NCBI GenBank assembly: GCA_947504725.1
Contig: CANNHN010000003.1
Location: forward strand, 152,945-216,944
Length of the DNA: 64,000 nucleotides
Reading direction: 5' to 3'
Source of the DNA: Bacteroidota bacterium
GTDB taxonomy: Bacteria; Bacteroidota; Bacteroidia; 2-12-FULL-35-15
Below are positions 25,874-61,741 of the stretch, piece after piece. Within the stretch, counting starts at the first letter, position 1. Each line of letters opens with the position of its first letter. Position numbers and translations under genes: made by a program. The notes under the pieces were generated by a model. That model made no database searches, was not told the DNA's origin, and worked only from the letters and a program-made list of their open reading frames with translations.

Positions 25874-26038
25874 TTCACTGGTTCATTAGTTGAGCTGTGT
25901 GTATTCTGTGTATGTATTTTTAGAAAATGTAAATTAAAAAAGCCCGAAGAAATTAATTTCTTCGGGCTTTTATTCTAAGTACTTAACCCGCAGAACGGGT
26001 AATACATACCAATGAACTAATGAACCAGTGAACTATTT
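25868..26038. repeat. 24-bp perfect inverted repeat holding both convergent stop codons
   Basis: The left arm (25868-25891) includes the TAG of pdhB and begins AAATAGTTCACTGGTTCATT. The right arm (26015-26038) is its exact reverse complement and includes the TAG of the minus-strand 1353-residue protein gene. The central part holds the bidirectional terminator at 25939-25970. Both gene ends share the sequence AAATAG plus the following 18 bases. Confidence 0.9.
25939..25970. terminator. bidirectional terminator between pdhB and the large cargo gene
   Basis: A 32-base perfect palindrome, AAAGCCCGAAGAAATT and its reverse complement, has A and T tracts outside the stem on both sides. It can stop transcription from pdhB and from the convergent minus-strand gene. 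Confidence 0.9.
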
Positions 26039-30094: not shown

Positions 30095-30132
30095 TTGAGT
30101 TGGGTTAGAGAGAATTTAGAGAGAATGTTTTG

Positions 30133-30516
30133 TTAATGAGATTTACCAGATACATGATGCTCTTCCATTATGAAATTATTTGGTCCTAATGAAAAAACAG
30201 GAATGTCTCTTGTTGTTGCAAAATTTTCAGGGTAGTCTGATAAATTTAAAGGGCGAACTGTAGAGTTTATTTCAGTAGCTGAAAACAATTCCACTTTCAC
30301 ACCTGTGTTAAATTCTATTGTGTGACGTGTATTTTTTAAGCGATGATATTTCATATCAGAATTATTCATTGCAGCAATGTATGGTTGAGTGTCGGTAACA
30401 CTAGCATTGCTAGTGATTGCGTAGGTTTGACCTTGAATTTCTTGCGCGTTTATAACAGCGCTAAAGAAAATTCCAATAAACAATAAAACAATTTTCAGTA
30501 AGATGTTAGTTTTCAT
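30133..30516 (-). CDS. small secreted protein of unknown function between two giant cargo genes
   Basis: This protein of about 127 residues starts at the ATG at 30516 (MKTNILLKIVLLFIGIFFSA), a good signal peptide ending INAQ; an in-frame ATG at 30537 lies upstream. The mature part has no recognisable motif: it includes a beta-like segment HTIEFNTGVKVELFSATEIN, and the C-terminus is His-rich (EEHHVSGKSH). It sits 39 bases upstream of the 1353-residue protein's start on the same strand, so it is probably co-transcribed with it. It could be an accessory to that cargo protein, but nothing shows this directly. Confidence 0.7.
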   Translation of the reverse strand: MKTNILLKIVLLFIGIFFSAVINAQEIQGQTYAITSNASVTDTQPYIAAMNNSDMKYHRLKNTRHTIEFNTGVKVELFSATEINSTVRPLNLSDYPENFATTRDIPVFSLGPNNFIMEEHHVSGKSH

Positions 30517-30665
30517 TTTGTTATGTTTAAAATTCATTTTTTACGAAGTAAGTAAAAATACTTCAAGATTACAAATCCATTTTGTAAGTATAATTAGTAT
30601 TCGATTTCCTTTTCTTACTTGTTTAGATGACAAAATTAGAAAAATAGTTGCATCAATTTAAAAGT

Positions 30666-30699
30666 AAAAGCCCTCCCAATTTGATTTGGGAGGGCTTTT
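30666..30699 (-). terminator. terminator of the 1200-residue cargo gene
   Basis: AAAAGCCCTCCCAA (30666-30679) and TTGGGAGGGCTTTT (30686-30699) form a 14-bp perfect stem with a 6-base loop. It lies 22 bases past the stop at 30721. Confidence 0.9.
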
Positions 30700-30720
30700 G
30701 ATCTGGGTTTAACCGAATGC

Positions 30721-33700
30721 TTACTTAACAATTGTAACAGTTCCAGTGTATTTATGTTTTTTGTCTTTGTTGTCAGTAATCTTAACAGCGTATATATATA
30801 CATCTTCTTGAGCAAGATCTTTTCCATGATTCGCTACTCCATTCCAATGTTTGTTAATATCATCTGTGAAGAAAATCATATTTCCCCAACGATCAAAAAT
30901 CATCATTTCAAATTTTTTGATGTAATCCCCTTTACCATAAAACTCATCATTGATACCATCTCCGTTTGGAGAAAAAGCATTTGGAATAAAGAACGTGAAT
31001 TCTGGATCAACTATAATGCAAACGTTTGTAGAGTCGATACATCCAAAATTACTAGTTACCAAAAGTGTAGCGCAAAATGTTCCCGCTTCTGTGAATGTAT
31101 GAGTAGGGTTTTGCAACGTGCTTGTGCTGTCAGAAGTTGATGAAAAAGAATCACCAAAATTCCAATTCCATCCAGATATAAAACCTGTTGATACAGTTGA
31201 TTCATCCGTATAAGCAATTGTAGGGTTGATGATACTTGTTTCCAATGGAGCGCTAAAATCTGCATTTGGCGTAGGATGCACCGTAATGTAATTATTAACT
31301 GTAGATGTAGAAGAACATCCTCCTAAAGTAGAAGTAACAGTTAAAGTAACATTATAGCTTCCAGCAATAGCATAACAATTTGTTGGAGCATTTGTACTTG
31401 CAGTATTTCCATCACCAAAATCCCAAGCCCAAGTTGCAATACCACCACCAAGAACTGTAGAGTTGTCAGTAAAGTTTGCACAATGTGGTTCACATCCTGA
31501 AGTGATTGGAGCGCTGAAAGCTACTACTGGTAAAGGTAATACAGTGATGGTAACAGTAGCTGTTGCTGTAGGTGAACAACCATCACTAGCCGTTACAGTA
31601 TAAGTTGTCGTAACAGCAGGTGAGACAGAAACTGGACTTCCTGATCCTGTTCCAGCCGGAGCCCAAGTATAAGTATACGGTCCGCCATTACCAAATGAAC
31701 CTAGTGCGGAAATGTTAGCTGATGCACCTGGACAAATAGAAGCAGTACCGCTAGCCACCACGTTAAGTGCTGGATTCACTGTAACTGTAACGTTGACAGG
31801 AGCAGCAGGACAACCATTTACATCTGTAGCGTTTACTGTATAAATAGTAGTAGCCGCAGGAGTAGAAGTAGGGTTAGCAATGTTTGTAAAATCTAATCCT
31901 GCTGGAGGAGTCCAAGTATAAGAATATGCACCGCCATTTCCACCAGAAGCAGAAGCAGTAATCATTGTGCTGCCACCTGTACAAACAGTACCAGGAGCAA
32001 TCGGAGCAATTACAACTAGAGTAGGCTCCGTAATAGTAGCAGTTGTTGTAGCGGTACAGCCATTTGCATCCGTAATTGTGCAAGTATATGTACCAGCACA
32101 TAATGCAGTAGCAGTAGCAGTTGCTTGAGCAGGAACCGTATTCCAAGAATATGAATATCCAGCTCCAATTGTACCACCCGCTCCAGCAGCAGTAGCCGTT
32201 CCATCACATACCCCATTACAAGAAGTAGGAGTAGTAGCCGTAATGCTAGCGGTTAATAAAGTAGGTTCAATTATAGCAGCAGTTCCTGAAGTAGTACAAC
32301 CCCAAGCATCGGTAACAGTAACAGTATAGGTTCCAATACATAAAGGACTGCAAGAAGCAGCAGCACAGCCCGAAGACCAAGCATAGGTATAAGCTGGTGT
32401 TCCACCAGCAGGAATAACAATTGTTTGTCCGTTACAAGCACCGTTACAAGTCACATCAATACCAGCCAATGCTAATGTAATTTGTGGGTCAGCATAAACG
32501 GTAACAGAACCTGTTCCTGCACATCCACTCGCATCAGTAACAAGAACAGAATACAATGTAGTAGTAGCAGGAGATGCAGTAGGAGTAGCGGTAGTCGCCC
32601 CAACAAGTGTAGCTGCCGGAGTCCAGTTGTAGGTAAATCCAGCACCAGTAGGTGTTACACCAAGTGCAGCGCTACCTCCAAAACAAACTGTATCATCCAA
32701 ACCAGCATTTACCAAAAGTCCTGAGTTAACAGTAACCGTTGCAACTGCAGTTGAAGTACATCCTAAAGAAGTTCCTGTAACAGTATAAGTAGTTGTAGTT
32801 ATTGGAGTTGCATCACCAGTATTAACACCCGTAACAGTCACGCCCGCTGTCCAAACATAACTTGTTGCACCACCAGCAATTAAGTTGGCAGTAAACGTTG
32901 GACAAATACTTGGTGAGTTAACAGTTGTAACTGGAATAGGATTTACAGTTACTGTTGCAATAGCAGTAGAGGTACAACCTGCTGTACTTCCCGTAACAGT
33001 ATAAGTAGTCGTAATAATAGGAGATGCATCTGCAGTAGCAACTCCTGTTGGAGTTGCTCCCGCTGTCCATGCATAAGATGTAGCTCCTGCGCCAGTTAAT
33101 GTTGCCGTTTGACCAGCACAAATGGTTGGTGAATTAACTGAAACTGGTGCACCAGGACTAACTGTTACAGTCGCAATTGCGCTGCTAGTACAACCTGCAG
33201 TTGTTCCAGTAACCGTGTATGTTGTAGTAACTAATGGTGCTGCATCAGCTGTATTCACACCTGTAGAAGTTGCACCTGCAGACCAAACATAAGAAGTTGC
33301 ACCACCAGCTGTTAAATTAGCAGTTTGTCCGGGACAAATAGTTGGAGAATTTACTGTAACAGTGGGTGCAGGGTTGATGGTTATACAAACAATATTGGAA
33401 TAAACAGGTGCACCGCAACCACTTACTTCTGCTCGAAAGCAAGTATTAGCTGTCATTCCAGCTGTTGTAAAAGTAGCAGTTGTAGCTCCTCCAATATTTG
33501 TCCATGGCCCACCAGCTACTGGCGCACTTTGCCATTGAATTCCTCCAACACTTCCAACCAATGAAAGGTTGACTGGCAATCCGGAACAGACGGATGCAGG
33601 CGCAACAGCAGCAACACCTGCTATTGGTGCAGGAACAACGTTGATGGTCATGCTTACGTTTGCAATTTGATTGCTGCAATCATCCATAACAGCACATGTA

Positions 33701-34323
33701 TATGTTGTTGTAACGGCTGGACAAACTGTAATTGAAGGTGTTGTAGCTCCAGTACTCCAAGTGTATACTACTGCAATTAAGCAACCACCTGTTGGTGTAG
33801 CAGTAATAGTAGAACAACTCCCAGCACAAATATTATTTGCTGAAGCGTTAACAGTAGCTGTAAATGTTGGCAATGCCCCAGGAGCAACGAATGTTTGTGT
33901 TGGACACCATGGGCCAACCGATCCATTATGATTCTCACGCATACGGTACTGATAAGTATTACCTGGACAAAGACCTGCATAAGGAATAAAAACACCTCCA
34001 TAATTTTGAACAATACAGCTTGGCTTCAGCATTTGGGCGCTTTGATAAAACGGATAAGTTCCAAGTGGTCCCCAGAATCCTGGAGCAAAAGCTGAAGCAT
34101 TAAACGCTTCGCCAATGCATCGAACTTCCACATCTAGCCAATATACTGCACAACCACAAGTAGGTGAGTCGGATGCCGCATCAACTGTAATTCCAGTCGG
34201 AGAAAAGGTTTGTTGAGTAAAGTTCACAAGAGCAATTGCATGACATGCATTTACTTCTTTTGTTGAAAACACAGTCATAAGAACTAGTGTGAACGTAAAG
34301 AGAGCAGTCTTAAAAAATTTCAT
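30721..34323 (-). CDS. large secreted protein with Ig-like repeats and type B T9SS C-terminus
   Basis: This 1200-residue protein has a signal peptide (first about 26 residues, ending VNACHA or similar). The Cys-rich N-terminal domain contains SPTCGCAVYWLDVEVRC and CPGNTYQYRMRENHNGS, resembling a fibronectin-like fold. It is followed by Ig-like modules, including three near-repeats starting VNSPTICPGQTANL, VNSPTICAGQTATL and VNSPSICPTFTANL, then SprB-type cysteine modules (VTCNGACNGQTIV), two PKD domains (WAWDFGDGNTASTN, WNWNFGDSFSSTSD) and the CHU_C-type end FFIPNAFSPNGDGINDEFYG to TGTVTIVK. It is secreted by T9SS and has its own terminator. Most of its C-terminal half closely matches the protein at 36873. 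Confidence 0.92.
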   Translation of the reverse strand: MKFFKTALFTFTLVLMTVFSTKEVNACHAIALVNFTQQTFSPTGITVDAASDSPTCGCAVYWLDVEVRCIGEAFNASAFAPGFWGPLGTYPFYQSAQMLKPSCIVQNYGGVFIPYAGLCPGNTYQYRMRENHNGSVGPWCPTQTFVAPGALPTFTATVNASANNICAGSCSTITATPTGGCLIAVVYTWSTGATTPSITVCPAVTTTYTCAVMDDCSNQIANVSMTINVVPAPIAGVAAVAPASVCSGLPVNLSLVGSVGGIQWQSAPVAGGPWTNIGGATTATFTTAGMTANTCFRAEVSGCGAPVYSNIVCITINPAPTVTVNSPTICPGQTANLTAGGATSYVWSAGATSTGVNTADAAPLVTTTYTVTGTTAGCTSSAIATVTVSPGAPVSVNSPTICAGQTATLTGAGATSYAWTAGATPTGVATADASPIITTTYTVTGSTAGCTSTAIATVTVNPIPVTTVNSPSICPTFTANLIAGGATSYVWTAGVTVTGVNTGDATPITTTTYTVTGTSLGCTSTAVATVTVNSGLLVNAGLDDTVCFGGSAALGVTPTGAGFTYNWTPAATLVGATTATPTASPATTTLYSVLVTDASGCAGTGSVTVYADPQITLALAGIDVTCNGACNGQTIVIPAGGTPAYTYAWSSGCAAASCSPLCIGTYTVTVTDAWGCTTSGTAAIIEPTLLTASITATTPTSCNGVCDGTATAAGAGGTIGAGYSYSWNTVPAQATATATALCAGTYTCTITDANGCTATTTATITEPTLVVIAPIAPGTVCTGGSTMITASASGGNGGAYSYTWTPPAGLDFTNIANPTSTPAATTIYTVNATDVNGCPAAPVNVTVTVNPALNVVASGTASICPGASANISALGSFGNGGPYTYTWAPAGTGSGSPVSVSPAVTTTYTVTASDGCSPTATATVTITVLPLPVVAFSAPITSGCEPHCANFTDNSTVLGGGIATWAWDFGDGNTASTNAPTNCYAIAGSYNVTLTVTSTLGGCSSTSTVNNYITVHPTPNADFSAPLETSIINPTIAYTDESTVSTGFISGWNWNFGDSFSSTSDSTSTLQNPTHTFTEAGTFCATLLVTSNFGCIDSTNVCIIVDPEFTFFIPNAFSPNGDGINDEFYGKGDYIKKFEMMIFDRWGNMIFFTDDINKHWNGVANHGKDLAQEDVYIYAVKITDNKDKKHKYTGTVTIVK
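31790..32700 (-). repeat. module block nearly identical to 37940-38880
   Basis: Roughly 900 bases inside the 1200-residue gene match the corresponding block of the 1590-residue gene, with only scattered differences by eye. A stretch around 32110-32460 is almost unbroken against 38240-38600. A more diverged copy is in the 1353-residue gene at about 27110-28030. The block encodes SprB-like modules with TCNGACNG and TSCNGVCDG. The limits are approximate. Confidence 0.8.
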
Positions 34324-34442
34324 AATGTTGGGAGTTGTTTAGTTATTAAACAGATGTTCGCTTTTCCCTAAAAGTTGCATTGGTTAATAAAGAAAAGTGG
34401 TCTTATTTTATTAACAAATTGTAAAGGAGTTGTGAATTCTTG

Positions 34443-36791
34443 TTAGTGGGATTTAACAAGTTTGTAAGTAGCTGATTTTGAGCTCGAAATTAACATTATG
34501 GAATAAACTCCATTTGGAAGATTTTCTAAATTGCTCAATTCGATAGTTCCATTGGTGAATAAAGTTGTTTTTCTTATTTCTTGTCCAAGAAAATCATATA
34601 TAATTAGAACGTATTTTCCAGAAGAAATTCCTGTGATAATAGCTTTGTCGTTTGCTGGATTTGGATACAGAAAACTATTTGAATTTAGATTGTAATTATA
34701 AGTATTCGTTAGTATGGATGTGCTATCTATATGCCAAACAAACGCATCTACATCTGCACTTTTAATTGTTTGAAAAGCACCTGCTGTGACAGGGAAATCA
34801 GCACTGTAAGTGTTTCCTGAAATAGCGATTTTTTGTCCCTGTACTTCGCAAATATCATAGGCATAATCAGCACTATTACCTCCATTTAAATTTGATAGTT
34901 CAACAGTTCCAGTAGAATCAAAAGTCATATAAACGATATCTGATCCTCCATTGTTTATTGTATCAAATTTATTTCCGACAATTGGAAAATCGCTCGAGCT
35001 TGTTTCACCGCAAACAGTAATTTTTTGATTTGTATTTACAATCATTCCTCTTCCTGTATCCCAAGCTGAGCCTCCTGCATAAGTCAACCATCTTAAGTTT
35101 CCGGAAGCATTAAAACTGCCCACTGATAAATCTCGAACTCCATTCATGGTGGTTTGGAAAGCGCCTGCAGTAATCGGAAAGTCGTTGCTGGTGCTATACC
35201 CCGTGAAATAAATGTTGTTTGAATTGTCGCAAGCTAAACCATATATGTCTTCATTCCCAACGCCACCTAGGTATGTCGACCAGGTTTTGTTTCCTGTACT
35301 ATCATATTTTGCAACAAATGCATCGCTTCCTCCCATTAAAAAGTTTTGATATGAGGTAATATCCACAGGGAAATTTGTGCTATAAGTATCACCAGCAACA
35401 ATTACATTTCCTATGGAATCAAATTGGATGGCGTGAGCATCTTCACTGTTTAATCCTCCTAAATAAGTACTCCATATTCTGTTTCCAGTGCTATCAAATT
35501 TTGCTATAAAACTATCCAGTGCTCCACCAAATAGTGGTTGCCATGCACTTGCTGATACTGGAAAATCGTTACTGCTTGTAAACCCTCCAAGTGCAATGTT
35601 TCCTCTTTTATCCATATCCATGCTAATTGCAAAATCTCCTCCAGTTCCCCCAATAAATGTTCCCCATAAAAAAATTCCATTGGCATCAAATTGTGTGATA
35701 AAAGCATCTACAACACCTGAAAAAGTTGAACTAAATACTCCACTTGTACTAACAAATAAATCATTGCTGTAGGTGTAGCCTGATAATGTTGGCTTTCCAG
35801 ATGGGCTAACCTTTAATCGATACCCAAAATCGTTTTGACTTCCGCCATAATAGGTTGACCATATTCGTTGGCCTGTAGCGTTAAATTTGAAAATATAGGC
35901 ATCGTAGTTTGCATTTATACTTGGTTGAAATGATCCTGCTGTAGTTGGGAAATCTAAACTTGATGTGTATCCTGAAATGTAAATGTTGCCATTGTTGTCG
36001 CCACTAACTCCATAACATTCATCCGCATCTCCACCGCCAGCAAAGGATATCCAAGGGTCAATGACAATCGATTGACAGTTTTTTGGAACTGATGCAGTAT
36101 AAACGATTGTGTGTTCATTGATGGTGATGTTGCACTTATTTTCTTCGCGAATTATTTTTTTATTTTTTTTAACATCTGCATAAACCAATGGAAACTGTTC
36201 GGTTAATTCTCCTAATGGAGTTTCAATAATTAATAGTTCTTTGGAGTTTTTTTTGTCGAAACTTTTTCTTGCAGTTGTTCCAATTAATTCAAATGAAAAT
36301 TGTACTTCAGTAGTTAATGGATTTTCAAAAACGATATCGTATTTTAATCCTTTGTCAGGGTGGTTGTAAAACACAATGGATGTTGCATTTGAAATATTCT
36401 TGTAAATAATTCTATCGAATTGATTTGCCGAAAAATGTTTACCGTTTTTGTAAAAGTTTAATTTTTCTGATTGTTCTTTTCCTTTTTCAAGTATAATTTC
36501 CGATGAGCTATTGATTTTATAATCATATCGAAAAACATTTATTTTATTTTCGATTAACATATCATTGAACATTTTTTTGTCTGTTTTTTCAAATAAAACA
36601 AATGCAATTCTGTCTTTTAAGAAATAAGCTGTTCCACCATCAATGGAAGTGTAAAATAAAATTTGTTCACAAGATGGAAGTGCTTGGTTGATTTGCCCTT
36701 TATTCTCAATGATGCTGGAAGCAAATATTGGTAAAGAATGCAGAAAGGCTAAAAGAAAAAATATAATTTTTTGTGGAGTCTTTGAATTCAT
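34443..36791 (-). CDS. SBBP-repeat beta-propeller secreted protein with type A T9SS sorting domain
   Basis: This 782-residue protein has a signal peptide (residues about 1-25). Residues 25-240 are the N-terminal domain typical of SBBP-repeat proteins (starting IIENKGQINQALPSCEQILF). From about 250 come roughly eight SBBP repeats of the kind WSTYYGGSQNDFGYRLKVSP and WSTYLGGVGNEDIYGLACD, each with YxGG and DFP, which build a beta-propeller. The end, SFLYPNPANDKAIITGISSG to NGVYSIMLISS, is a type A sorting domain. It is probably exported and surface-attached; its binding target is unknown. It lies between two type B cargo genes on the same strand. Confidence 0.9.
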   Translation of the reverse strand: MNSKTPQKIIFFLLAFLHSLPIFASSIIENKGQINQALPSCEQILFYTSIDGGTAYFLKDRIAFVLFEKTDKKMFNDMLIENKINVFRYDYKINSSSEIILEKGKEQSEKLNFYKNGKHFSANQFDRIIYKNISNATSIVFYNHPDKGLKYDIVFENPLTTEVQFSFELIGTTARKSFDKKNSKELLIIETPLGELTEQFPLVYADVKKNKKIIREENKCNITINEHTIVYTASVPKNCQSIVIDPWISFAGGGDADECYGVSGDNNGNIYISGYTSSLDFPTTAGSFQPSINANYDAYIFKFNATGQRIWSTYYGGSQNDFGYRLKVSPSGKPTLSGYTYSNDLFVSTSGVFSSTFSGVVDAFITQFDANGIFLWGTFIGGTGGDFAISMDMDKRGNIALGGFTSSNDFPVSASAWQPLFGGALDSFIAKFDSTGNRIWSTYLGGLNSEDAHAIQFDSIGNVIVAGDTYSTNFPVDITSYQNFLMGGSDAFVAKYDSTGNKTWSTYLGGVGNEDIYGLACDNSNNIYFTGYSTSNDFPITAGAFQTTMNGVRDLSVGSFNASGNLRWLTYAGGSAWDTGRGMIVNTNQKITVCGETSSSDFPIVGNKFDTINNGGSDIVYMTFDSTGTVELSNLNGGNSADYAYDICEVQGQKIAISGNTYSADFPVTAGAFQTIKSADVDAFVWHIDSTSILTNTYNYNLNSNSFLYPNPANDKAIITGISSGKYVLIIYDFLGQEIRKTTLFTNGTIELSNLENLPNGVYSIMLISSSKSATYKLVKSH

Positions 36792-36821
36792 CTTTCTTTA
36801 TTACGTTCTAAAAGTAATGAA

Positions 36822-36851
36822 AAATCCGCTCCGAATTTTCGAAGCGGATTT
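36822..36851 (-). terminator. terminator of the 1590-residue cargo gene
   Basis: AAATCCGCT (36822-36830) and AGCGGATTT (36843-36851) enclose a further CGAA/TTCG stem. It lies 21 bases past the stop at 36873. Confidence 0.85.
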
Positions 36852-36872
36852 CTATTGTTTTAGAACAAATTG

Positions 36873-39800
36873 TTATTTAACAATCGTTACTGTTCCTGTG
36901 TATTTGTGCTTTTTGTCTTTGTGGTCTGTGATTTTAACTGAATATACATATACATCTTGTTGCGCTACATCTTTTCCGTGATTTGCAATTCCATCCCAAT
37001 GTTTGTTGATATCATCAGTAAAGAAAATCATATTTCCCCAACGATCGAAAATCATCATTTCAAACTTTTTGATGTTATCACCTTTTCCATAGAACTCATC
37101 ATTAATTCCGTCAGCATTTGGTGAAAATGCATTCGGGATAAAGAATGTAAATTCTGGTTCGATTACAATACATACTTGTGTGTTGTCTGTACATCCAAAG
37201 TTACTAGTCACAGTAAGTGAAGCACAATATGTACCTGCTTCTGTAAATATATGAGAAGGATTTTGTAATGTACTAGCGTTGTCTGTTAAAGAAGAAAAAG
37301 AATCTCCAAAACTCCAATCCCAGTTGGTAATACTACCAGTGGAAATACTAGAGTTATCGGTATACTGTACTTCTGGATTAATGATGCTGGTAGATAATGG
37401 AGCAGTAAAATCTGCAACAGGATTTGGATGTACAGTAACATAACCAACAACAGTAGAAGTAGAAGAACATCCTCCTAAAGTAGAAGTAGTAGTTAATGTA
37501 ACATTATAACTTCCAGCAATTGCATAGCAATTAGTAGGAGTAGCTGTAGTAGCGGTATTTCCATCTCCGAAGCTCCAAGCCCAAGTAGCGATAGCGCCAC
37601 CAGCAACAGTAGAATTATCAGTAAAGTTTACACACAAAGGTGCACAGCCCGATGTGATAGGAGCGCTAAATGCAACCACTGGTAAAGGTAAAACGGTAAT
37701 AGTAACAGTAGAAGTCGCAGTAGGCGAACATCCATCACTAGCAGTAACCGTATAAGTAGTAGTAGCAGCAGGAGAAACCGAAACCGGTGTTCCAGCAGCG
37801 GTACCAGCAGGTAGCCATGTGTAGGTATATGGTCCTCCAGATCCTAATGATGCTAAAGCAGAAATATTAGCAGAAGCACCTGGGCAAATAGAAGCAGTAC
37901 CACTAGCCAACACCGTAAGTGGAGGATTCACAGTAACGGTAACAGTAACTGGTGCAGCAGGACAACCATTTGCATCAGTAGCATTTACAGTATAAGTAGT
38001 AGTTCCAACAGGCGTTACAATTACAGTTGATGTAGTTCCTGTTCCTGCAGGGAACCAAACATAACTATATGTTCCTAGATTTCCACCCGAAGCAGAAGCA
38101 GTAAGAGTAGTAGTTCCACCAAAACAAATCGTAGCAGATGCAATTGGCGCAGTCACCACTAAAGTAGGTTCAGTAATAGTAGCGGTAATAGTAGCAGTAC
38201 ACGCATTTGCATCTGTAATTGTACAAGTATAAGTACCAGCACATAATCCAGTAGCAGTAGCAGTTGCTTGAGCAGGAACCGTATTCCAAGAATATGAATA
38301 TCCAGCTCCAATTGTACCACCCGCTCCAGCAGCAGTAGCAGTACCATCACATACCCCATTACAAGAAGTAGGAGTAGTAGCAGTAATACTAGCGGTTAAT
38401 AAAGTAGGTTCAATCACAGTAGCCGTTCCTGAAGTAGTACAACCCCAAGCATCGGTAACAGTAACAGTATAGGTTCCAATACATAACGGACTGCAAGAAG
38501 CAGCAGCACAGCCCGAAGACCAAGCATAGGTATAAGCTGGTGTTCCACCAGCAGGAATAACAATTGTTTGTCCGTTACAAGCACCATTACAAGTCACATC
38601 AATACCAGCTAATGCTAATGTAATTTGAGGATCAGCATAAAGGGTAACAGAACCTGTACCTGTACATCCACTCGCATCAGTAACAAGAACAGAATACAAT
38701 GTAGTAGCAGCAGGAGATGCAGTAGGAGTAGCCGTGGTAGCCCCAACAAGTGTCGCTGCCGGAGTCCAGTTGTATGTATATCCAGCACCAGTAGGTGTAA
38801 CACCAAGTACAGCGCTACCTCCAAAACAAATGGTGTCATTTAATCCTGCATTAACAATTAGTCCTGGATTAACAGTAACCGTAGCAATTGCAGTAGAAGA
38901 ACAACCAAGAGAAGTTCCTGTAACCGTATACGTAGTAGTAACAGCAGGAGTAGCGTCCGCTGTGTTCACTCCAGTAGAAGTAGCACCAGCGCTCCATACA
39001 TAAGTAGTAGCACCACCAGCAATTAAGTTAGCGGTAAATGTTGGACAAATAGAAGGCGAATTAACGGTAGTAACTGGAATAGGATTAACAGTGATTGTAG
39101 CAACAGCAGATGAAGTACAACCAAGAGAAGTTCCTGTAACAGTATACGATGTAGTTGTTGAAGGAGCATCCGTAATTGGATTAGTAACAGCACCTGTTGA
39201 CCAAGCATATGTTGTAGCACCAGCAGCTGTTAATGTTGCAGTAACTCCATCACAAATTGTTAGTGAGTTAACAGTTGTTACTGGTAATGGATTAACGGTT
39301 ACCGTTGCGATGGCGGTGCCTGTACAACCAGCCGTTGTGCCAGTAACCGTGTAAGAAGTTGTAGTAGCAGGAGTTATGTTAATTGGATTTGTAACAGCAC
39401 CTGTTGACCAAGAATAAGTTGTTCCACCTGTTCCTGTTAGGGTTGCTGTAGCACCTGCACAAATAGTAGGTGAATTTACAGAAACAACCATTCCAGAAGC
39501 AATTGTAACAGTTGCAACAGCTGAAGATGTGCATGTTAATGATGTTCCAGTAACGGTATAAGAAGTAGTAGTAGCTGGAGTAACATTAATTGGATTGGTA
39601 ACTGCACCGGTTGACCAAGCATAAGTCGTAGCACCTGCACCAGTTAATGTTGCAGTTCCACCTGGACAAATTGTTGGTGAATTAACTGTAGTAACAGGGA
39701 TAGGATTTACAGTGATTGTAGCGACCGCAGAAGAAGTACAACCAAGAGAAGTTCCAGTAACGGTATACGATGTAGTTGTTGAAGGAGCATCCGTAATTGG

Positions 39801-41645
39801 ATTTGTTGTAGCGCCCGTTGACCAAGCATATGTTGCAGCACCAGCAGCAGTTAAGGTCGCAGTAGCACCAACACAAATGGTTGGAGAATTTACTGTTGTA
39901 GTTGGTAAAGGATTAACTGTTATAGTAGTCGTTGCAGTTCCAGTACAACCACCCACAGCAGTTCCAGTTACAGTATAAGATGTTGTAGTTCCGGGCGTAA
40001 CGTTTAATGGATTAACAGTAGAGCCAGTATTCCAAAGATATGTACTTGCACCCGTTGCCGTAAGTGTTGCAGTGCCTCCATTACAAATCGTTGGTGTGTT
40101 AACGGCAATGGCTACGCTAGCTCCAATGGTAACTGTAGCAATAGCAGTAGACGTACAGCCTCCAAAAGCAGTTCCCGTAACAGTATACGAAGTTGCAGTA
40201 GCAGGAGTAACAGTTATTGGGTTGGTAGTTGCACCCGTTGACCAAGTATATGTCGTAGCACCTGCTCCAGTTAATGTTGCAGTTCCGCCTGGACAAATTG
40301 AAGGTGAATTTACGGTTGTTATAGGAAGAGGATTTACAGTTATAGTATAAGTACTTGTTGGGCCAACACAACCAGCCGCAGAAGTAGGAGTGATTGTAAT
40401 TGTCCCCATTATTGGAGCTCCACCAGCATTGGTTGCGGTAAATGCGAGAACGCTACTAGTTCCACTAGCAACTAAACCAATTGCAGGATTTGAATTTGTC
40501 CAAGTAAATGTTACACCTGCAGGAGTACCTGCAAGAGTATTAAGAGGTACAGCTGCTCCAGCACAATATGTTTGATTTGCCTCAGGAGTTACAGTAGGCA
40601 AAGGGTTTACAGTAACAGTTGCTATAGCTGTTCCGGTGCAAGCTGCAGTTGTTGCAGTAACAGTATAAGAAGTTGTAGTTGCAGGAGAAACAATGATAGG
40701 ATTTGTAGTTGCACCATTTGACCAAGCGTAAGTTGTACCACCAGTTGCAGTTAAAGTAGCTGTTGCTCCTGCACAAATCGTAGGAGAATTTACAGTAGGA
40801 GCAAGGGCTCCTGATGTATATGTAATTGTTACAGAACCTGGTCCTGTATTATTTCCGACAGTACATCCGCCACCGGGAGGAATTAAGCTAGAGCCACCGC
40901 CACCGCCACCGCCACCTAGCGGTGAAGATCCAAAACAATCGCTTCCACCACCGCCACCGCCATAGTAGCCACCGCCACCACCGCCACCGGGTCCAAGGTT
41001 AAAACAAGGATCTGGTCCACCAGCTCCACCGGTACCTAAAGTGCCTGCTGTTCCTGCTGTTCCACTTGCAATCCAAGGAGGACCAGCGGTTCCGCCTCCA
41101 GCCGCAGTGCCACCACCACCACCCAAACCAAAAGAGGCAATGCCAGCTGTTCCTGCAGGACATCCACCGGCACCACCGGCACCATTAGCATCCCCACCAC
41201 CAATTCCACCGCCACCACCAGCAACAATAAATCTATTTCCAAGTCCATAAGGTGCAATTCGAATATCAGATGCGCCACCGCCACCACAGGATGCGTTTGA
41301 AGCTGCACCGCCAGCAGTCGATCCTGCGCCACCACCGCCAAATGCAGTGCCGGGACATGGCCCAACACAGCCCACATTGATTTGTAATACTTGTCCAGGA
41401 GTTACTGCAATTGTAGCTGTAACTGTAGCGCCTAAACCACCGGTTCCACCTGCAGAAGCGCCTCCACCTTGAGCTCCTTCTAAAATAACATTTATAGATG
41501 TAACACAAGGAGGAACAGTCCAATTTACTGGTGCTCCAGTACAACCAAATGCTACAGTGGTTTGCGAAAAACTATTTGTTGATGCGAATACTGTAATCGT
41601 TATAATTAACAGGCTATGCAAAAGGGTTTTGAGAGTAGTATTCAT
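36873..41645 (-). CDS. giant secreted protein: glycine-rich domain, tandem Ig-like repeats, PKD, type B T9SS C-terminus
   Basis: This 1590-residue protein has a signal peptide (first about 27 residues, ending SFSQ). Residues about 30-280 form a glycine-rich ALK-like domain with GASDIRIAPYGLGNRFIVAG, like the one in the gene at 22702. Next are about eight Ig-like repeats of 66-70 residues, each with a VNSPTIC-type start, an AWSTGA core and a TSYTVTGT end, interrupted once by a different 90-residue module (ANQTYCAGAAVPLNTLAGTP). SprB-like cysteine modules, two PKD domains (WAWSFGDGNTATTA, WDWSFGDSFSSLTD) and the CHU_C end (AFSPNADGINDEF to GTVTIVK) complete it. It is a likely cell-surface adhesin exported by T9SS. 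Confidence 0.93.
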   Translation of the reverse strand: MNTTLKTLLHSLLIITITVFASTNSFSQTTVAFGCTGAPVNWTVPPCVTSINVILEGAQGGGASAGGTGGLGATVTATIAVTPGQVLQINVGCVGPCPGTAFGGGGAGSTAGGAASNASCGGGGASDIRIAPYGLGNRFIVAGGGGGIGGGDANGAGGAGGCPAGTAGIASFGLGGGGGTAAGGGTAGPPWIASGTAGTAGTLGTGGAGGPDPCFNLGPGGGGGGGYYGGGGGGSDCFGSSPLGGGGGGGGSSLIPPGGGCTVGNNTGPGSVTITYTSGALAPTVNSPTICAGATATLTATGGTTYAWSNGATTNPIIVSPATTTSYTVTATTAACTGTAIATVTVNPLPTVTPEANQTYCAGAAVPLNTLAGTPAGVTFTWTNSNPAIGLVASGTSSVLAFTATNAGGAPIMGTITITPTSAAGCVGPTSTYTITVNPLPITTVNSPSICPGGTATLTGAGATTYTWSTGATTNPITVTPATATSYTVTGTAFGGCTSTAIATVTIGASVAIAVNTPTICNGGTATLTATGASTYLWNTGSTVNPLNVTPGTTTSYTVTGTAVGGCTGTATTTITVNPLPTTTVNSPTICVGATATLTAAGAATYAWSTGATTNPITDAPSTTTSYTVTGTSLGCTSSAVATITVNPIPVTTVNSPTICPGGTATLTGAGATTYAWSTGAVTNPINVTPATTTSYTVTGTSLTCTSSAVATVTIASGMVVSVNSPTICAGATATLTGTGGTTYSWSTGAVTNPINITPATTTSYTVTGTTAGCTGTAIATVTVNPLPVTTVNSLTICDGVTATLTAAGATTYAWSTGAVTNPITDAPSTTTSYTVTGTSLGCTSSAVATITVNPIPVTTVNSPSICPTFTANLIAGGATTYVWSAGATSTGVNTADATPAVTTTYTVTGTSLGCSSTAIATVTVNPGLIVNAGLNDTICFGGSAVLGVTPTGAGYTYNWTPAATLVGATTATPTASPAATTLYSVLVTDASGCTGTGSVTLYADPQITLALAGIDVTCNGACNGQTIVIPAGGTPAYTYAWSSGCAAASCSPLCIGTYTVTVTDAWGCTTSGTATVIEPTLLTASITATTPTSCNGVCDGTATAAGAGGTIGAGYSYSWNTVPAQATATATGLCAGTYTCTITDANACTATITATITEPTLVVTAPIASATICFGGTTTLTASASGGNLGTYSYVWFPAGTGTTSTVIVTPVGTTTYTVNATDANGCPAAPVTVTVTVNPPLTVLASGTASICPGASANISALASLGSGGPYTYTWLPAGTAAGTPVSVSPAATTTYTVTASDGCSPTATSTVTITVLPLPVVAFSAPITSGCAPLCVNFTDNSTVAGGAIATWAWSFGDGNTATTATPTNCYAIAGSYNVTLTTTSTLGGCSSTSTVVGYVTVHPNPVADFTAPLSTSIINPEVQYTDNSSISTGSITNWDWSFGDSFSSLTDNASTLQNPSHIFTEAGTYCASLTVTSNFGCTDNTQVCIVIEPEFTFFIPNAFSPNADGINDEFYGKGDNIKKFEMMIFDRWGNMIFFTDDINKHWDGIANHGKDVAQQDVYVYSVKITDHKDKKHKYTGTVTIVK
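38870..40800 (-). repeat. tandem Ig-like repeat array in the 1590-residue gene
   Basis: Units of about 200 bases recur, each recognisable by the minus-strand coding of a VNSPTIC-like start and a VTVNP-like end. I count eight, interrupted by a different module at about 40330-40600. Some neighbouring units are nearly the same at DNA level. The boundaries are approximate. Confidence 0.8.
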
Positions 41646-56387: not shown

Positions 56388-58847
56388 CTAAAACTTCAAA
56401 CTTAATCCTCCCATAAAATTCATTCCTGCTTGGGGATAATAAAAATTTTCAACGGTGTGTATTCCTCCCGAAATGTATCCGAAAGTATAACCATTTGATT
56501 CGTATTGTTCACTAAATATGTTGTTTATAGCTAATGTGAATGCTATTTCACGAATGTGTTTTGTTTTTAATGTGTAATTGATTCGAATATCATTTGTGAA
56601 AAATGCATCTAGTTTTCGAGAATTATTTGTTGTGTTATCTAAATATTGTTTACTCACGTATTTGCTTACAAAAGAAAGTTTCAAGTTCTTAATAAACTCA
56701 TAAGTGATAGTGCTTCCTGCAATCACATTTGGAGAAAATGCAATATCAGTTTCAGAATAAAAGTTTACACGCTGAGCAGTGCTATCGTAATTGTCTACAA
56801 ACTCTTCAAAGTTTAAAATTTTATTTTTGCTCAATGTTAGGTTCGCTTTCCAAGTTAAATTTTTCAAAATTTTAATACCAACTTCTGCTTCAATTCCTGC
56901 TCTATAGCTATTGTCGACATTCGCTCTGTTATATGCGCCAACATTATTTACTTCTCCAGTTAAAACAAGTTGATTGCGATATTCCATATAATATAAATTC
57001 ACGGCCCATTCTGCTTTTTTCACATGATGGCGATATCCTAATTCCAAATCATTTAACTTTTCTGCTTTGGGCCTGCTAGCTGGAGTAGATTGTGTAAAGT
57101 CATTTCTGCTTGGCTCTTTATTTCCAACGCTATATGATAAATAAATACTAGCATAATTGTTTAACTCGTAATGCAGTCCTATTTTGGGATTAATAAATCC
57201 GAGTGATACTGTTTGTTGAACATTTTTTAAGCTATCATCGTAACCAAGAAATGAATAGTTTACTAAACGGTATTGCAAGTCTCCATAAAATGAGAATTTT
57301 TTTGTAACGGAATAAACTACTTTTGCAAACATGTTGAAATCAATTTTACTTGCAGTGTCGTTGTAGTAGTTTTTGTGTAAAGTACTGTTTGATGCATATT
57401 GTGACCAAATTATTTCTCCGTAATGTAGTCCATCGTATTTATTCCAAGCGCCTCCAACTGTTGCAATTAATTTTTTATTACTTCTGTATGTTAATGAAAA
57501 TGTTGTTCCATAAAAATTATTATCGAGCCATTTTCTTCTTACTAAATCTGTCGTTGAAATTGTATCTGTCCCGATTATTAAATTCGCAAGTCCGTAATTG
57601 CTGTATGCTTGACTGCTTTGGTATTCTTCGTAATAACCTTTTCCTTTTGTAAAATGGAAGGCAATGTTTGCATCCCAATTGCGATTGATTTCACGAGAGA
57701 AATGTAATTGATAATAATCTTGTTTGTAATGATCAACTTGATTTTGATAGGTGAATTGGTTATAAGTTCTACTGTTAGAGTTTAATAGATTAAGTGCATC
57801 AGAAGGAGATAGCCCATTGCGAATAATGTAATCGTTCATTGCATTCACATCTCCTTTTAATCGCGATTCAGGTATTCCATTCCACGACTGATAGGTTTCT
57901 TCTAATCCCGAAAAAGTAATAAATTTTATGATTGATTTTTTGCCGTAATAAGTCGCAGCTAAATAATATGATTTTAAATCTGAACTTGCTCTATCAATAA
58001 AACCGTCTGATGAAATTTTTGATAAACGCGCGTCAAATGTAAATTTTTCATTGATTAATCCAGACCCAGCATTGACCGTGTTTTTCCAAGTGTTAAATGA
58101 GCCATATGAAGTATTGTATTCTCCATATCCTTTAGGGTTTAATTTTGTTGTTTGGATGTTTAAGCTGCCACCAAAAGCCCCAGCTCCATTTGTAGATGTT
58201 CCAACTCCTCTTTGTACTTGTATGTTGTCAATACTCGAAGCAATATCTGGCAAATCTACCCAATATGTTCCCTGTGATTCAGCATCATTTACCGGAACTC
58301 CGTTTATAGTTACATTTATTCGTGTTGCATCAATTCCTCGCATACGAATGCCTGTGTAGCCAATTCCTGCTCCAGCATCGGATGTTGTAACTACTGAAGG
58401 AAGTTGATTTAATAATATTGGCAAGTCTTGTCCTAAATTTTGTTCTTCTATTTGTGATTTGTTAATGCTGCTGTTTGCGAAAGCAGAGCGTTCATCAATT
58501 CGAGTTGCGACTACTATTATTTCGTCCATCAAAACTGTGCTTTCTTCCAGTTCAATAGTGTAGTTTACGTCTTTGTTTTCTTTTATTTTGATGGTGTCAT
58601 TTTTTGTGATGAATCCTATCATTGAAGTTCGTATTACATACGTGTCTTTTTTTAAGTTTATCACTTCATAAGTACCATCACTTTTGCTTTGTGCTGCAAT
58701 GTATGTGTTGTTGATTTGGATTATTGCTCCTGCAATACTTTCTTTAGAATTTTTATTGCTTACTTTTCCTTTAATGCTAAATTGAGCAAATGCTAATAAA
58801 GGAAATAGCAAAAGTAGCGTTGCTAAATTTTTTTTAGATTGAAACAT
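56388..58847 (-). CDS. TonB-dependent outer-membrane receptor under TPP riboswitch control (putative thiamine receptor)
   Basis: This 819-residue protein has a signal peptide (residues about 1-22), a CarboxypepD_reg-like domain (KGKVSNKNSKESIAGAIIQI), a plug domain (LGQDLPILLNQLPSVVTTSD, then TGIRMRGIDATRINVTINGV) and a beta-barrel ending in an aromatic (GGLSLKF). A TPP riboswitch lies in its leader, so its substrate is very probably thiamine or a relative; receptors of this kind are called OMR1 in Bacteroidota. Transport energy comes from TonB-ExbBD. Upstream on the same strand are a PnuC-like transporter and a kinase, which may complete the uptake route. Confidence 0.9.
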   Translation of the reverse strand: MFQSKKNLATLLLLFPLLAFAQFSIKGKVSNKNSKESIAGAIIQINNTYIAAQSKSDGTYEVINLKKDTYVIRTSMIGFITKNDTIKIKENKDVNYTIELEESTVLMDEIIVVATRIDERSAFANSSINKSQIEEQNLGQDLPILLNQLPSVVTTSDAGAGIGYTGIRMRGIDATRINVTINGVPVNDAESQGTYWVDLPDIASSIDNIQVQRGVGTSTNGAGAFGGSLNIQTTKLNPKGYGEYNTSYGSFNTWKNTVNAGSGLINEKFTFDARLSKISSDGFIDRASSDLKSYYLAATYYGKKSIIKFITFSGLEETYQSWNGIPESRLKGDVNAMNDYIIRNGLSPSDALNLLNSNSRTYNQFTYQNQVDHYKQDYYQLHFSREINRNWDANIAFHFTKGKGYYEEYQSSQAYSNYGLANLIIGTDTISTTDLVRRKWLDNNFYGTTFSLTYRSNKKLIATVGGAWNKYDGLHYGEIIWSQYASNSTLHKNYYNDTASKIDFNMFAKVVYSVTKKFSFYGDLQYRLVNYSFLGYDDSLKNVQQTVSLGFINPKIGLHYELNNYASIYLSYSVGNKEPSRNDFTQSTPASRPKAEKLNDLELGYRHHVKKAEWAVNLYYMEYRNQLVLTGEVNNVGAYNRANVDNSYRAGIEAEVGIKILKNLTWKANLTLSKNKILNFEEFVDNYDSTAQRVNFYSETDIAFSPNVIAGSTITYEFIKNLKLSFVSKYVSKQYLDNTTNNSRKLDAFFTNDIRINYTLKTKHIREIAFTLAINNIFSEQYESNGYTFGYISGGIHTVENFYYPQAGMNFMGGLSLKF

Positions 58848-58918
58848 AGTCGTTTATTATTTTTAGTTAAACCGATAGCAGCAAAGGGTAAGCAGCTACT
58901 ATAATTTTAACAAAACCA

Positions 58919-59064
58919 TTTCCCTCCGCAGGCATTACCCTGATCAGGTGCATACATAAAAACGTTTAGCGCTTTTACATATTGGGTGTAATCTCAGCCT
59001 TCAATTATCAAAATCTTGAATTTTAAATATTCAAACTTTGAACTATAATAAAAGGCACCCCTTT
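58919..59064 (-). ncRNA. TPP (THI-box) riboswitch
   Basis: Read on the minus strand, GGGGTGCC (59061-59054), GGCTGAGA, ACACCC, ACCTGATCAGGGTAATGCC and TGCGGAGGGA occur in the THI-box order. The P3 arm is replaced by a long AT-rich insert (about 59000-59050) containing an AACTTTGAACT repeat. It lies about 70 bases upstream of the TonB receptor ATG. TPP binding would be expected to reduce expression of that gene. Confidence 0.95.
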
Positions 59065-59085
59065 AAGATACTACAAAGCTATAAA

Positions 59086-59628
59086 TTAATTTTTAGTGTG
59101 CGATACAAATTTTTCAATTTCTTGTATGCAGTTTAAAAATCGTTCTTCTTTTTCCCCTTTTATGATGGAGTAATTCGCACGAATTGATTTTAGTTCTTTT
59201 TCATACCAATCGAAAAAAAACAATCTTCGATTTGGATTTTCTCTGTATTTGTCTTCTTCCCATGGTAAGTCGGGGTAAGTAAGTAGATATAAATCATATT
59301 TGTGAGGAACAATATTATTTATTATCCATTCTGGACAAGTATGAAATACATCTTCACACCATACTTTTGATAATATCAATTCTGTGTCAGCAAAAAGAAA
59401 TGTATTAGCGTAATTCATTGCCTTTTTTTCTCTTTCTAGTTGTTCTTTTGCAATAGCCAATACATCCTGTAGTGAATATTTTTCTGTAAGTGTTGATAGG
59501 TATTCGCGCGAATATTCTTTCACCCAAACGGTGTTGAATTTTTTTGCTAATAATTCGGAGAGTGTACTTTTGGCTGTGCTTTCCGGACCAATTAATGCAA
59601 TACGTATTATGTTGTTCGCTTGCGCCAT
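59086..59628 (-). CDS. NadR-like P-loop kinase with atypical Walker A
   Basis: This 180-residue protein matches the kinase domain of NadR: IRIALIGPESTAKSTLSELL at residues 8-27, then VWVKEYSREYLSTL, LQDVLAIAKEQLEREKKAMN, LFADTELILSKVWCEDVF and YDLYLLTYPDLPWEEDKYRE, whose Arg/Glu/Asp residues match the nucleoside-binding part. In the P-loop the usual Gly before Lys is Ala (GPESTAKST). NadR phosphorylates ribosylnicotinamide; next to a TPP riboswitch and a PnuC homologue it could instead phosphorylate thiamine. The gene starts 22 bases inside the PnuC-like gene, and the riboswitch begins just downstream. Confidence 0.85.
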   Translation of the reverse strand: MAQANNIIRIALIGPESTAKSTLSELLAKKFNTVWVKEYSREYLSTLTEKYSLQDVLAIAKEQLEREKKAMNYANTFLFADTELILSKVWCEDVFHTCPEWIINNIVPHKYDLYLLTYPDLPWEEDKYRENPNRRLFFFDWYEKELKSIRANYSIIKGEKEERFLNCIQEIEKFVSHTKN

Positions 59629-60209
59629 GTTAAATATCCTGTAACTGATAATATCGTGTAGATGATCGAAAGTGATGCAATCAAATAAAAACCTCTATAA
59701 GAATATAGTATAATTCCTAATGCATTAAGTAGTATCCAGAATAGCCAGTTTTGAATAATTTTTTTTGCTTGCATCCATGTAGCAATAATGCTAAAAGCTG
59801 TAATAAAGGCATCTAAATATGGTAGTGCTTGTGTTGAATAGTTTTTGGCAAAATATCCAAGAGGTAACCAAAAAACAATTCCAATTAGAATTAAAATCAG
59901 ATTTTTTTTGGTAGAAAAAGATGTAATTGTTAATTGTGATTTTTCTTGTGAACCATAAAGCCATTGATACCACCCATATATTCCGATTATAACATAAAAT
60001 ATATTCAAACCACTTTCTAAAAAAAGTTGGCCACTGAAACATAAGTAAACAAGCATCGCACTAGACGTAATTCCGAATATCCAACACCAAATGTTTTCGA
60101 AAGTGGCTAAAATAACATACGATAGTGCTGCAATAAAAATAGCCCATTCTAGTATACTTGTCTGTGTTAGCGTATCCTTAATTGAATTTATAATTTCAGA
60201 AATTGTCAT
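59607..60209 (-). CDS. PnuC-family vitamin transporter (thiamine or nicotinamide riboside)
   Basis: This 200-residue protein has seven predicted membrane segments. The family motifs are present: ENIWCWIFGITSSAMLVYLC (residues about 33-52), FYVIIGIYGWYQWL and SIIATWMQAKKIIQNWLFWI. PnuC proteins move vitamins by facilitated diffusion and rely on a cytoplasmic kinase for trapping; the kinase gene overlaps its end. PnuC takes nicotinamide riboside, whereas the PnuT branch takes thiamine and in Bacteroidota is found beside TPP-regulated receptors, so thiamine is the more likely substrate here. No riboswitch precedes this gene itself. Confidence 0.9.
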   Translation of the reverse strand: MTISEIINSIKDTLTQTSILEWAIFIAALSYVILATFENIWCWIFGITSSAMLVYLCFSGQLFLESGLNIFYVIIGIYGWYQWLYGSQEKSQLTITSFSTKKNLILILIGIVFWLPLGYFAKNYSTQALPYLDAFITAFSIIATWMQAKKIIQNWLFWILLNALGIILYSYRGFYLIASLSIIYTILSVTGYLTWRKRTT

Positions 60210-60218
60210 GAATAGAAA

Positions 60219-60854
60219 TTATTCGATTGGAATTTTCAATTCCTGAAACTTTTCTACAATGGAATTGAAAGCAGCTACTGGATTTTTTGTTTTCCAAATG
60301 CTGCTGTAAAATGCAAGTCCGTCAAAGTCTATTTCATTTGATTTTTCAATAGCGTTTAAATCAACTCCGCCACGTGCAATAATTTTAAAAGATGTTTTTG
60401 ACATTGCTGATTTTAAACTATGCTCCGTATATCCGCCCTGAAATTTACTATTTAAATTGTCGAAAATCGGACTTAAAAAAGCATAACTATAGTCAAAACG
60501 ATAGTCTTTTTCGAAAAGTTGACCGATGTTACTAAATGAAGTTGTTATAATTATGTTTGGGTTTTTAGATCGAATTAATTTTGTTAAAAACCAAGTTTTA
60601 TATTTTTTTTTGATATGAGATTTTGTTAAGTGAATTCCTCTCAAATTAAAAGTGCGTGCAAGTCCGTGGTGGGAGTGAATGATTATTCTGTTGTGAAAAT
60701 GTGACGGGATTGCGTTTATTAACTCTTTTGTTTTTTTTGTTGAAAGTTTATGTTTTCTTAAATGAAAAAAATCCAATCCTGCTTCAAATAAACTGGTTAT
60801 TATTTGTGCTTCATTTTCAATTTCGCTTGAACTAGAAATAACAATCAGTTTCAT
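60219..60854 (-). CDS. ThiE/TenI-like TIM-barrel protein (diverged thiamine phosphate synthase homologue)
   Basis: This 211-residue protein has the ThiE/TenI-like barrel: a start MKLIVISSSSEIENEAQIIT, FFHLRKHKLS (the LREK site reads LRKH), RGIHLTK, SYAFLSPIFDNLNSK (in place of GPxFxTxTK) and KIIARGGVD followed by the phosphate-loop-like FDGLAFYSSIW. The magnesium-binding Asp residues expected in the IND and GVHLGQxD motifs are missing, so normal thiamine phosphate synthase activity is doubtful. It is 4 bases from the GGGP synthase and 9 bases from the PnuC-like gene, and clearly in one operon. It may be a salvage or regulatory enzyme. Confidence 0.75.
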   Translation of the reverse strand: MKLIVISSSSEIENEAQIITSLFEAGLDFFHLRKHKLSTKKTKELINAIPSHFHNRIIIHSHHGLARTFNLRGIHLTKSHIKKKYKTWFLTKLIRSKNPNIIITTSFSNIGQLFEKDYRFDYSYAFLSPIFDNLNSKFQGGYTEHSLKSAMSKTSFKIIARGGVDLNAIEKSNEIDFDGLAFYSSIWKTKNPVAAFNSIVEKFQELKIPIE

Positions 60855-60858
60855 GATT

Positions 60859-61599
60859 TTATTTATTAAATGAATGAATTGTTTTTGCTATTGATCCAAT
60901 TAATGAGGTGTTTTTTTCAATAGCATTTCCTACAACAATTATATCGGCTCCAGCTTTACATGCTAATAGTGCTTTTTTAGGACTGTCTATTCCTCCTCCA
61001 ATAATTAATGGAATAGATATGTTTTTGCTAACTTTTTTTATCATTTCAATGGGGATGGTGTTTTGAGCTCCGCTTCCGGCATCCATGTAAATTAATTTAA
61101 AACCCAATTGTTCGCCTGCCATTGCTGTACAAACGGCAATATCATTTTTGTCTGATGGGATGGGAGTGGTGTTGCTAATGTATGATGCAGCAGTTTGTCT
61201 GCCACTTTCAATCAACATATATCCCGTTGATAAAATCTCTAAATGGCTCGCTTTTATAAGCGGTGCTGCTATAACATGTTTGCCTATTAGAAGGTCTGGG
61301 TTTCTGCCGGAAATAAGCGATAAAAGAAGAATGCTGTCAGCATTTTTGCTTATTTGTAAGTGATTGCCAGGAAAAATAACAATAGGGATAGAAGTGTTTT
61401 TTTTTATGGATTTAATGCAATTCTCAAAACTCCCATCACTTAAAATGCTCCCTCCAACCATAATGAAATCAACTCCTGCGCTTTCAGATTTAGTAATTAC
61501 GTCTATTGATTCAAACTTGTCTGGGTCGATTAATACAGCAAAGAGTTTTTTCTTTTTCTCTTTGTTTTTAACAATATTATCGTAATTCTTTTTCACCAT
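60859..61599 (-). CDS. geranylgeranylglyceryl/heptaprenylglyceryl phosphate synthase
   Basis: This protein of about 246 residues starts at the ATG at 61599 (MVKKNYDNIVKNKEKKKKLF); a TTG at 61623 is also in frame. The TIM-barrel shows FAVLIDPDKFES, VDFIMVGGSILSDG, PIVIFPGNHLQI, GYMLIESGRQTAA, YMDAGSGAQNTIP and IPLIIGGGIDSP, all typical of the PcrB/GGGPS family with sn-glycerol-1-phosphate binding. Group II members in Bacteroidota make ether-linked prenylglyceryl phosphates of archaeal type. It is first in the minus-strand cluster with the ThiE-like, PnuC-like and kinase genes. Confidence 0.9.
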   Translation of the reverse strand: MVKKNYDNIVKNKEKKKKLFAVLIDPDKFESIDVITKSESAGVDFIMVGGSILSDGSFENCIKSIKKNTSIPIVIFPGNHLQISKNADSILLLSLISGRNPDLLIGKHVIAAPLIKASHLEILSTGYMLIESGRQTAASYISNTTPIPSDKNDIAVCTAMAGEQLGFKLIYMDAGSGAQNTIPIEMIKKVSKNISIPLIIGGGIDSPKKALLACKAGADIIVVGNAIEKNTSLIGSIAKTIHSFNK

Positions 61600-61741
61600 T
61601 TTATCTTTAAAAAAGATTTTCAAGCAATATTAAATAATTCATTTGAGGAGAGCTCAATTTAATTTGAAAATTAATTTGACATTTAAATGACCATTTTTTC
61701 ATTTTTTTTATAGATATTTACAAAAATTTACAAAAAAGCGC

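Follow-up and report, generated by a model that had tools for sequence, protein, structure and literature searches.

Introduction

The locus described here raises the question of whether a kinase resembling that of the nicotinamide riboside (NR) protein NadR can serve in the salvage of thiamine. It lies in a stretch of 64,000 nucleotides from a Bacteroidota bacterium (G000:C3:152945-216944), called the window below, whose source genome of 3.4 Mb is 99.6% complete. In the order of transcription, positions 56388-61623 of the window hold a PcrB-family gene, a TMP/TENI-fold gene, pnuC, the kinase gene, a thiamine pyrophosphate (TPP) riboswitch and a TonB receptor gene. Gene coordinates and a Pfam search confirmed that all the genes named in an initial annotation of this DNA stand on the minus strand at the places it gave. 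Many Bacteroidota are vitamin B1 auxotrophs, a trait whose prediction rests on the enzymes ThiK, ThiM and ThiN. We consider it likely, judging from comparative sequence evidence, that the locus serves a thiamine auxotroph for the uptake and trapping of thiamine, and that the kinase is a non-orthologous replacement of thiamine pyrophosphokinase (TPK) which would convert thiamine to thiamine monophosphate (TMP), to be turned into TPP by ThiL. With somewhat less confidence we extend this to the class: the NadR-derived kinase family is rather likely to be the main thiamine-trapping enzyme of the Bacteroidia and a replacement of TPK not assigned before. The family is present in about 70% of the genomes that lack ThiC in the class sample, occurs together with PnuC, and in many cases has a TPP riboswitch as its neighbour or control element.

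Results

The source genome encodes one PnuC, one kinase of this type and ThiL, and it contains one TPP riboswitch; ThiC, canonical ThiE and TPK were not found in it, and TPK (PF04263) is absent from it and from all 35 congeners searched. The bacterium thus appears, from its gene content, to be a thiamine auxotroph. Within the genus, ThiC is absent from all 22 genomes with the monofunctional kinase and present in 12 of the 14 others; two congeners carry only a NadR-type kinase, and one of them (G027) has ThiC and the other (G022) canonical ThiE.

Two overlapping samples were used for wider counts, one of 99 relatives and one of 247 genomes of the class, and a few NadR-type kinases are included in the kinase counts. 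Among the relatives the kinase occurs in 53 genomes, all of which have PnuC, and TPK is present in 10 of the 11 genomes that have PnuC without the kinase. ThiC was found in 3 of the 53 kinase genomes versus 32 of the 46 others, and canonical ThiE tracks ThiC, being absent from 48 of the 53. The same pattern is seen in the class sample, where the kinase occurs in 124 genomes, ThiC in 80 and TPK in 46, while kinase and ThiC meet in 7 genomes and kinase and TPK in 5. Either the kinase or TPK is present in 152 of 167 ThiC-negative genomes versus 13 of 80 ThiC-positive ones (Fisher test 3e-32, which ignores phylogeny), and the kinase by itself in 117 of the 167 (about 70%). Eleven families contain both genomes with the kinase and no ThiC and genomes with ThiC and no kinase; taken as one contrast each, they always show the opposite switch. 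These counts, for genus and class alike, bear out that the kinase family tracks the loss of thiamine synthesis and the absence of TPK.

ThiL was found in 97 of the 99 relatives, TPK genomes included, and was for this reason dropped as proof of a route through TMP. It is retained in relatives G045, G048, G051, G073, G089, G094 and G097, which have TPK and neither ThiC nor canonical ThiE.

The kinase gene (59086..59628, minus strand) overlaps the end of pnuC and encodes a P-loop protein of 180 residues that matches PF13521 (AAA_28) with 105 bits. Pfam and the PDB matches agree on a ribosylnicotinamide-kinase fold with Walker A, a DT motif and a lid; the structural model (predicted local distance difference test score 95.7) has the kinase domain of NadR as its best PDB match (8x7f, TM score 0.88). 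The protein consists of the kinase domain only and lacks the N-terminal nicotinamide mononucleotide (NMN) adenylyltransferase domain; a NadR included for comparison (locus L058) has 329 residues with CTP_transf_like. In a tree of 128 kinases, whose bootstrap values are rough and some of whose branches are long, a branch with support of 99/98 separates the nine bifunctional NadR domains from the 119 others, and all 43 riboswitch-linked kinases fall on the monofunctional side, spread over it. Clustering with NR systems, which was to be checked according to the initial annotation, is therefore not what the tree shows. Three nearly invariant positions of the NadR kinase domain (Thr in 13 of 13, Tyr in 12 of 13 and Gly in 12 of 13) are occupied by S, V and K in the window kinase, and the monofunctional family has marks of its own, a Trp (99%) and usually a Lys and a Pro. 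We propose that this AAA_28 protein acts as a thiamine kinase.

In three families the kinase is fused to another domain, namely DUF4301 (L066 5769-7889), an aldose 1-epimerase-like domain (L065 6163-7608) and a GNAT acetyltransferase domain (L165 2221-3207). Their partners carry no consistent message, and the fusions were dropped as a clue to the substrate.

Association with TPP riboswitches extends well beyond the window. Among the relatives, 23 of the 53 kinase genomes have a riboswitch downstream of the kinase, in the same orientation and no more than about 3.5 kb away, and when relatives and class sample are taken together this arrangement is found in at least 14 families, as counted from the listed coordinates. 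In two species of one genus the riboswitch directly precedes pnuC-kinase: in Marivirga aurantiaca (L122) with a score above the Rfam cut-off, and in the complete chromosome of Marivirga arenosa (L154), where three TPP riboswitches above the cut-off stand before pnuC-kinase, a THI5/NMT1-like gene and a TonB receptor. The co-occurrence that had been suggested as a check is thus present. In M. arenosa the THI5/NMT1-like protein (L154 6545-7566) is encoded between kinase and receptor and has a TPP riboswitch to itself; the three riboswitches fall within about 2.4 kb.

The order of the window is largely kept in congeners and in family f37, where SAHH, in some cases WG, PcrB, the TenI-like gene, PnuC, kinase, riboswitch, receptor, a leucine-rich repeat gene, RibF and ATP synthase follow one another; this conservation rules out the locus as a product of chance or artefact. 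In G004, G014 and G026 the order is broken exactly between kinase and riboswitch.

The receptor gene (56388..58847, minus strand) encodes a TonB-dependent receptor of 819 residues with a CarboxypepD_reg-like domain, plug and barrel (PF13715, PF07715, PF00593). In most of the loci examined a TPP riboswitch immediately precedes its homologue, and one such homologue, with 611 bits to the window protein, belongs to a textbook operon of riboswitch, receptor, PnuC and TPK (L180). It is a probable outer-membrane thiamine receptor of the Omr1/OMthi type. The pnuC gene (59607..60209, minus strand), which overlaps the start of the kinase gene, encodes an inner-membrane channel of 200 residues (PF04973, 165.7 bits, cut-off 27.3), and we propose that it is a PnuT-like thiamine facilitator. 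In a PnuC tree of modest resolution two TPK-linked PnuCs group with some kinase-linked ones, apart from the NadR-linked, and the window protein falls in another part; the resolution is too weak for a test of substrate, and the tree was dropped as such.

The riboswitch aptamer (58904..59070, minus strand) matches RF00059 at 58904-58990 with 36.4 bits (E 1.4e-5, cmscan), the only such match in the genome. Sequence, cmscan, fold and conservation in the genus agree on an intact TPP-binding core: P2 (GGGGUG/CACCC, the GGGGTG strand at 59061-59056), CUGAGA, and P4/P5 with ACCUGAU...GCGnAGGGA, the core ACCUGAU...GCGGAGGGA being that of RF00059. The full fold differs from RF00059 in a very long P3 of about 57 nt and in an additional hairpin of 13 bp and 34 nt (58950..58983, minus strand) in J2/4, between the 3' strand of P2 and P4, where the canonical spacing is 3-5 nt. 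No match in the standard search reached the Rfam gathering score of 54.3 bits, which is a curation threshold and not a structural feature; the window element scores below it because its P3 is very long and its J2/4 carries the hairpin. The initial annotation had called the riboswitch clear: it is real, with core intact, but it is not clear to a standard search. The same architecture is found at the same place in congeneric genomes.

The J2/4 hairpin is supported by covariation as well as by the fold. In a comparison of 11 species both partners vary at 11 of its 13 base pairs, and pairing is found in 93.7% of cells versus 38-54% in slid controls. Folding inserts of 21-37 nt in J2/4 are present in 26 of the 57 distinct riboswitches parsed. 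Because the optional P3a helix sits at the junction of P2 and P3 (Barrick and Breaker, PMC2258182), the J2/4 hairpin is a helix other than P3a. Within this genus it takes the TPP riboswitches that precede TonB receptors below the Rfam cut-off, and aptamers with such an additional helix escape standard thresholds. Elsewhere, TPP riboswitch-like elements were seen in tandem before a TonB receptor (L145 6543-6789 and L153 6758-6947).

Between the stop codon of the kinase gene and the aptamer, about 20 nt before P2, lies TAGCTTTG (59074..59081, minus strand), a promoter-like element of the Bacteroidota -7 type for a riboswitch-receptor transcript. Of the 57 riboswitches, 32 have the pattern TAnnTTTG at a distance of 8-35 nt before P2, versus 1.8% in shuffles. 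From this recurrence, and from the position of TAGCTTTG just past the kinase stop, it follows that the receptor very probably has its own promoter. As first annotated, only the receptor is directly downstream of the riboswitch. Between aptamer and start codon stands another hairpin (58866..58911, minus strand; fold z = -2.48), with an outer stem GTTAAA...TTTAAC and an inner stem AGTAGC/GCTGCT, whose sequence and fold are nearly identical in congeners. It is a plausible candidate for the expression platform, and the complementarity of its loop (ACCCUUU/CUCCUUU) to the 5' AAAGGGG of the aptamer suggests that the two pairings could be mutually exclusive. In congeners G026 and G014 (L050 7118-7192 and L052 6775-6849) a tRNA-Arg(ACG) gene ends a few bases before the riboswitch-receptor unit, for which no separate promoter element was seen, as if transcription came from the tRNA promoter.

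The gene first annotated as ThiE-like and as part of thiamine salvage (60219..60854, minus strand; PF02581, 44 bits) did not hold up in that role. Its product scores 29 bits against TIGR00693, whose cut-off is 145, it has HSHH...K in place of the ND...D metal and diphosphate residues of ThiE, and it resembles TenI; residues and score rule it out as a condensing enzyme of salvage. A congener has a biosynthetic operon whose TenI-like protein carries the HSH motif as well. Upstream of it lies the gene of a PcrB/GGGPS-family prenyl-glyceryl phosphate synthase (60859..61623, minus strand; PF01884, 143 bits; PRK04169, 284 bits), a conserved neighbour which the TenI-like gene tends to follow and which remains linked to the TenI-like gene, pnuC and kinase; it is not thought to be part of thiamine salvage. 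In another part of the window, at 26033-41645, there is a run of very large, repeat-rich and probably secreted proteins, several of which share the C-terminal segment 'FFIPNAFSPNGDG'.

Discussion

The initial annotation had read receptor, PnuC and NadR-like kinase as a thiamine set with the kinase in the place of TPK, and this prediction has come through the comparative tests of tree, phyletic pattern and riboswitch linkage. In the scheme that results, it is our inference which substrates the receptor, channel and kinase handle, what phosphorylated product arises and how regulation responds. Expressed from a promoter of its own, the TonB receptor would bring thiamine across the outer membrane, and the PnuC-family channel would let it equilibrate across the inner membrane by diffusion. 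The kinase, presumably co-transcribed with pnuC as the genes overlap, would convert it to TMP, which could not leak back; the chromosomal ThiL would then form TPP, and TPP would shut off the receptor through the riboswitch.

Several observations weigh against this interpretation. The riboswitch of the window does not control pnuC-kinase, because it lies downstream of the pair and has its own promoter, and only the receptor is directly controlled. In several congeners pnuC-kinase is far from the riboswitch-receptor unit, and many Sphingobacteriaceae, as well as Paludibacter, have no riboswitch close to the kinase. NCBIfam names the window PnuC a nicotinamide riboside transporter, with a score above its cut-off. 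In family f54 four genomes combine kinase, TPK and ThiC, ThiL is kept in TPK genomes without ThiE, and the Fisher test given above takes no account of shared ancestry.

The lack of riboswitch control over pnuC-kinase in the window, and the separation of this pair from the riboswitch-receptor unit in several genomes, would suit a locus in which PnuC and kinase take up NR and form NMN and merely adjoin a thiamine receptor, and the fold and the family names do derive from NR systems. However, the kinase lacks the NMN adenylyltransferase domain that the nine true NadR loci have, it belongs to a separate clade and has lost the signature residues of NadR, and its mutual exclusion with ThiC and TPK is left unexplained if the substrate is NR. 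Moreover, riboswitches stand directly before pnuC-kinase in Marivirga, and G019 has, besides its pnuC-kinase pair, a separate TonB-PnuC-NadR locus without riboswitch. Tree, residues and exclusion with TPK thus rule out NR salvage as first choice, and we judge it improbable.

If thiamine is the substrate, one would argue that the kinase could be a pyrophosphokinase which forms TPP in one step, as a direct functional analogue of TPK, with which it alternates across genomes. ThiL does not discriminate here: since TPK genomes that lack ThiE retain it too, it is no proof of a TMP intermediate. However, the known enzymes with this fold, of the NadR/thymidylate-kinase type, transfer a single phosphate, and ThiL, found in nearly all genomes and in the source genome too, could complete TPP synthesis; the one-step reaction is unlikely, if less so than the NR function. 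The substrate could also be a precursor or breakdown product of thiamine, hydroxymethylpyrimidine or the thiazole alcohol, as may be hinted by the THI5/NMT1-like protein under its own riboswitch beside the kinase in M. arenosa and by the TenI-like gene that adjoins the pair in the window. Against this, the 48 of 53 kinase genomes among the relatives that are without canonical ThiE could not use the standard route to couple free precursors, and TPK, with which the kinase alternates, is a thiamine-specific enzyme; this alternative seems to us very improbable. Phosphorylation of thiamine itself to TMP is what we favour.

Should the kinase phosphorylate thiamine, the 117 ThiC-negative genomes that carry it would gain a missing salvage enzyme, many annotations as 'ribosylnicotinamide kinase' and 'nicotinamide riboside transporter' would be wrong, and models of vitamin exchange would change. 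No earlier report tying a NadR-like kinase to thiamine was found in the searchable open literature, subscription papers being outside the scope of the search.

The window shares with the NadR-PnuC system of NR uptake the kinase fold (TM score 0.88 to 8x7f), the channel family and the adjacency of the two genes. It differs in that its kinase has no NMN adenylyltransferase domain, falls in a separate clade (99/98) and has lost the Thr, Tyr and Gly, and in that the kinase family is linked to TPP riboswitches and thiamine auxotrophy. The thiamine system of Bacteroides consists of Omr1/OMthi, PnuT and Tnr3, the last being the enzyme (PMC5613172). The window resembles it in a TPP riboswitch before a TonB receptor of the same family, a PnuC-family channel and a proposed thiamine-phosphorylating enzyme. 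In contrast to it, the window has a NadR-like P-loop kinase and no TPK (Tnr3/ThiN), and its order is pnuC, kinase, riboswitch and receptor, so that the riboswitch stands ahead of the receptor gene and not of the set as a whole. In vitamin reconstruction, ThiK, ThiM and ThiN are the signature enzymes of B1 salvage (PMC6593275); the window kinase would share with them the role of feeding salvaged B1 into cofactor synthesis, but it belongs to an unrelated protein family that is not in that list. Since the listed enzymes are ThiK, ThiM and ThiN and Bacteroides uses Tnr3, the kinase, if its proposed role holds, is a new replacement.

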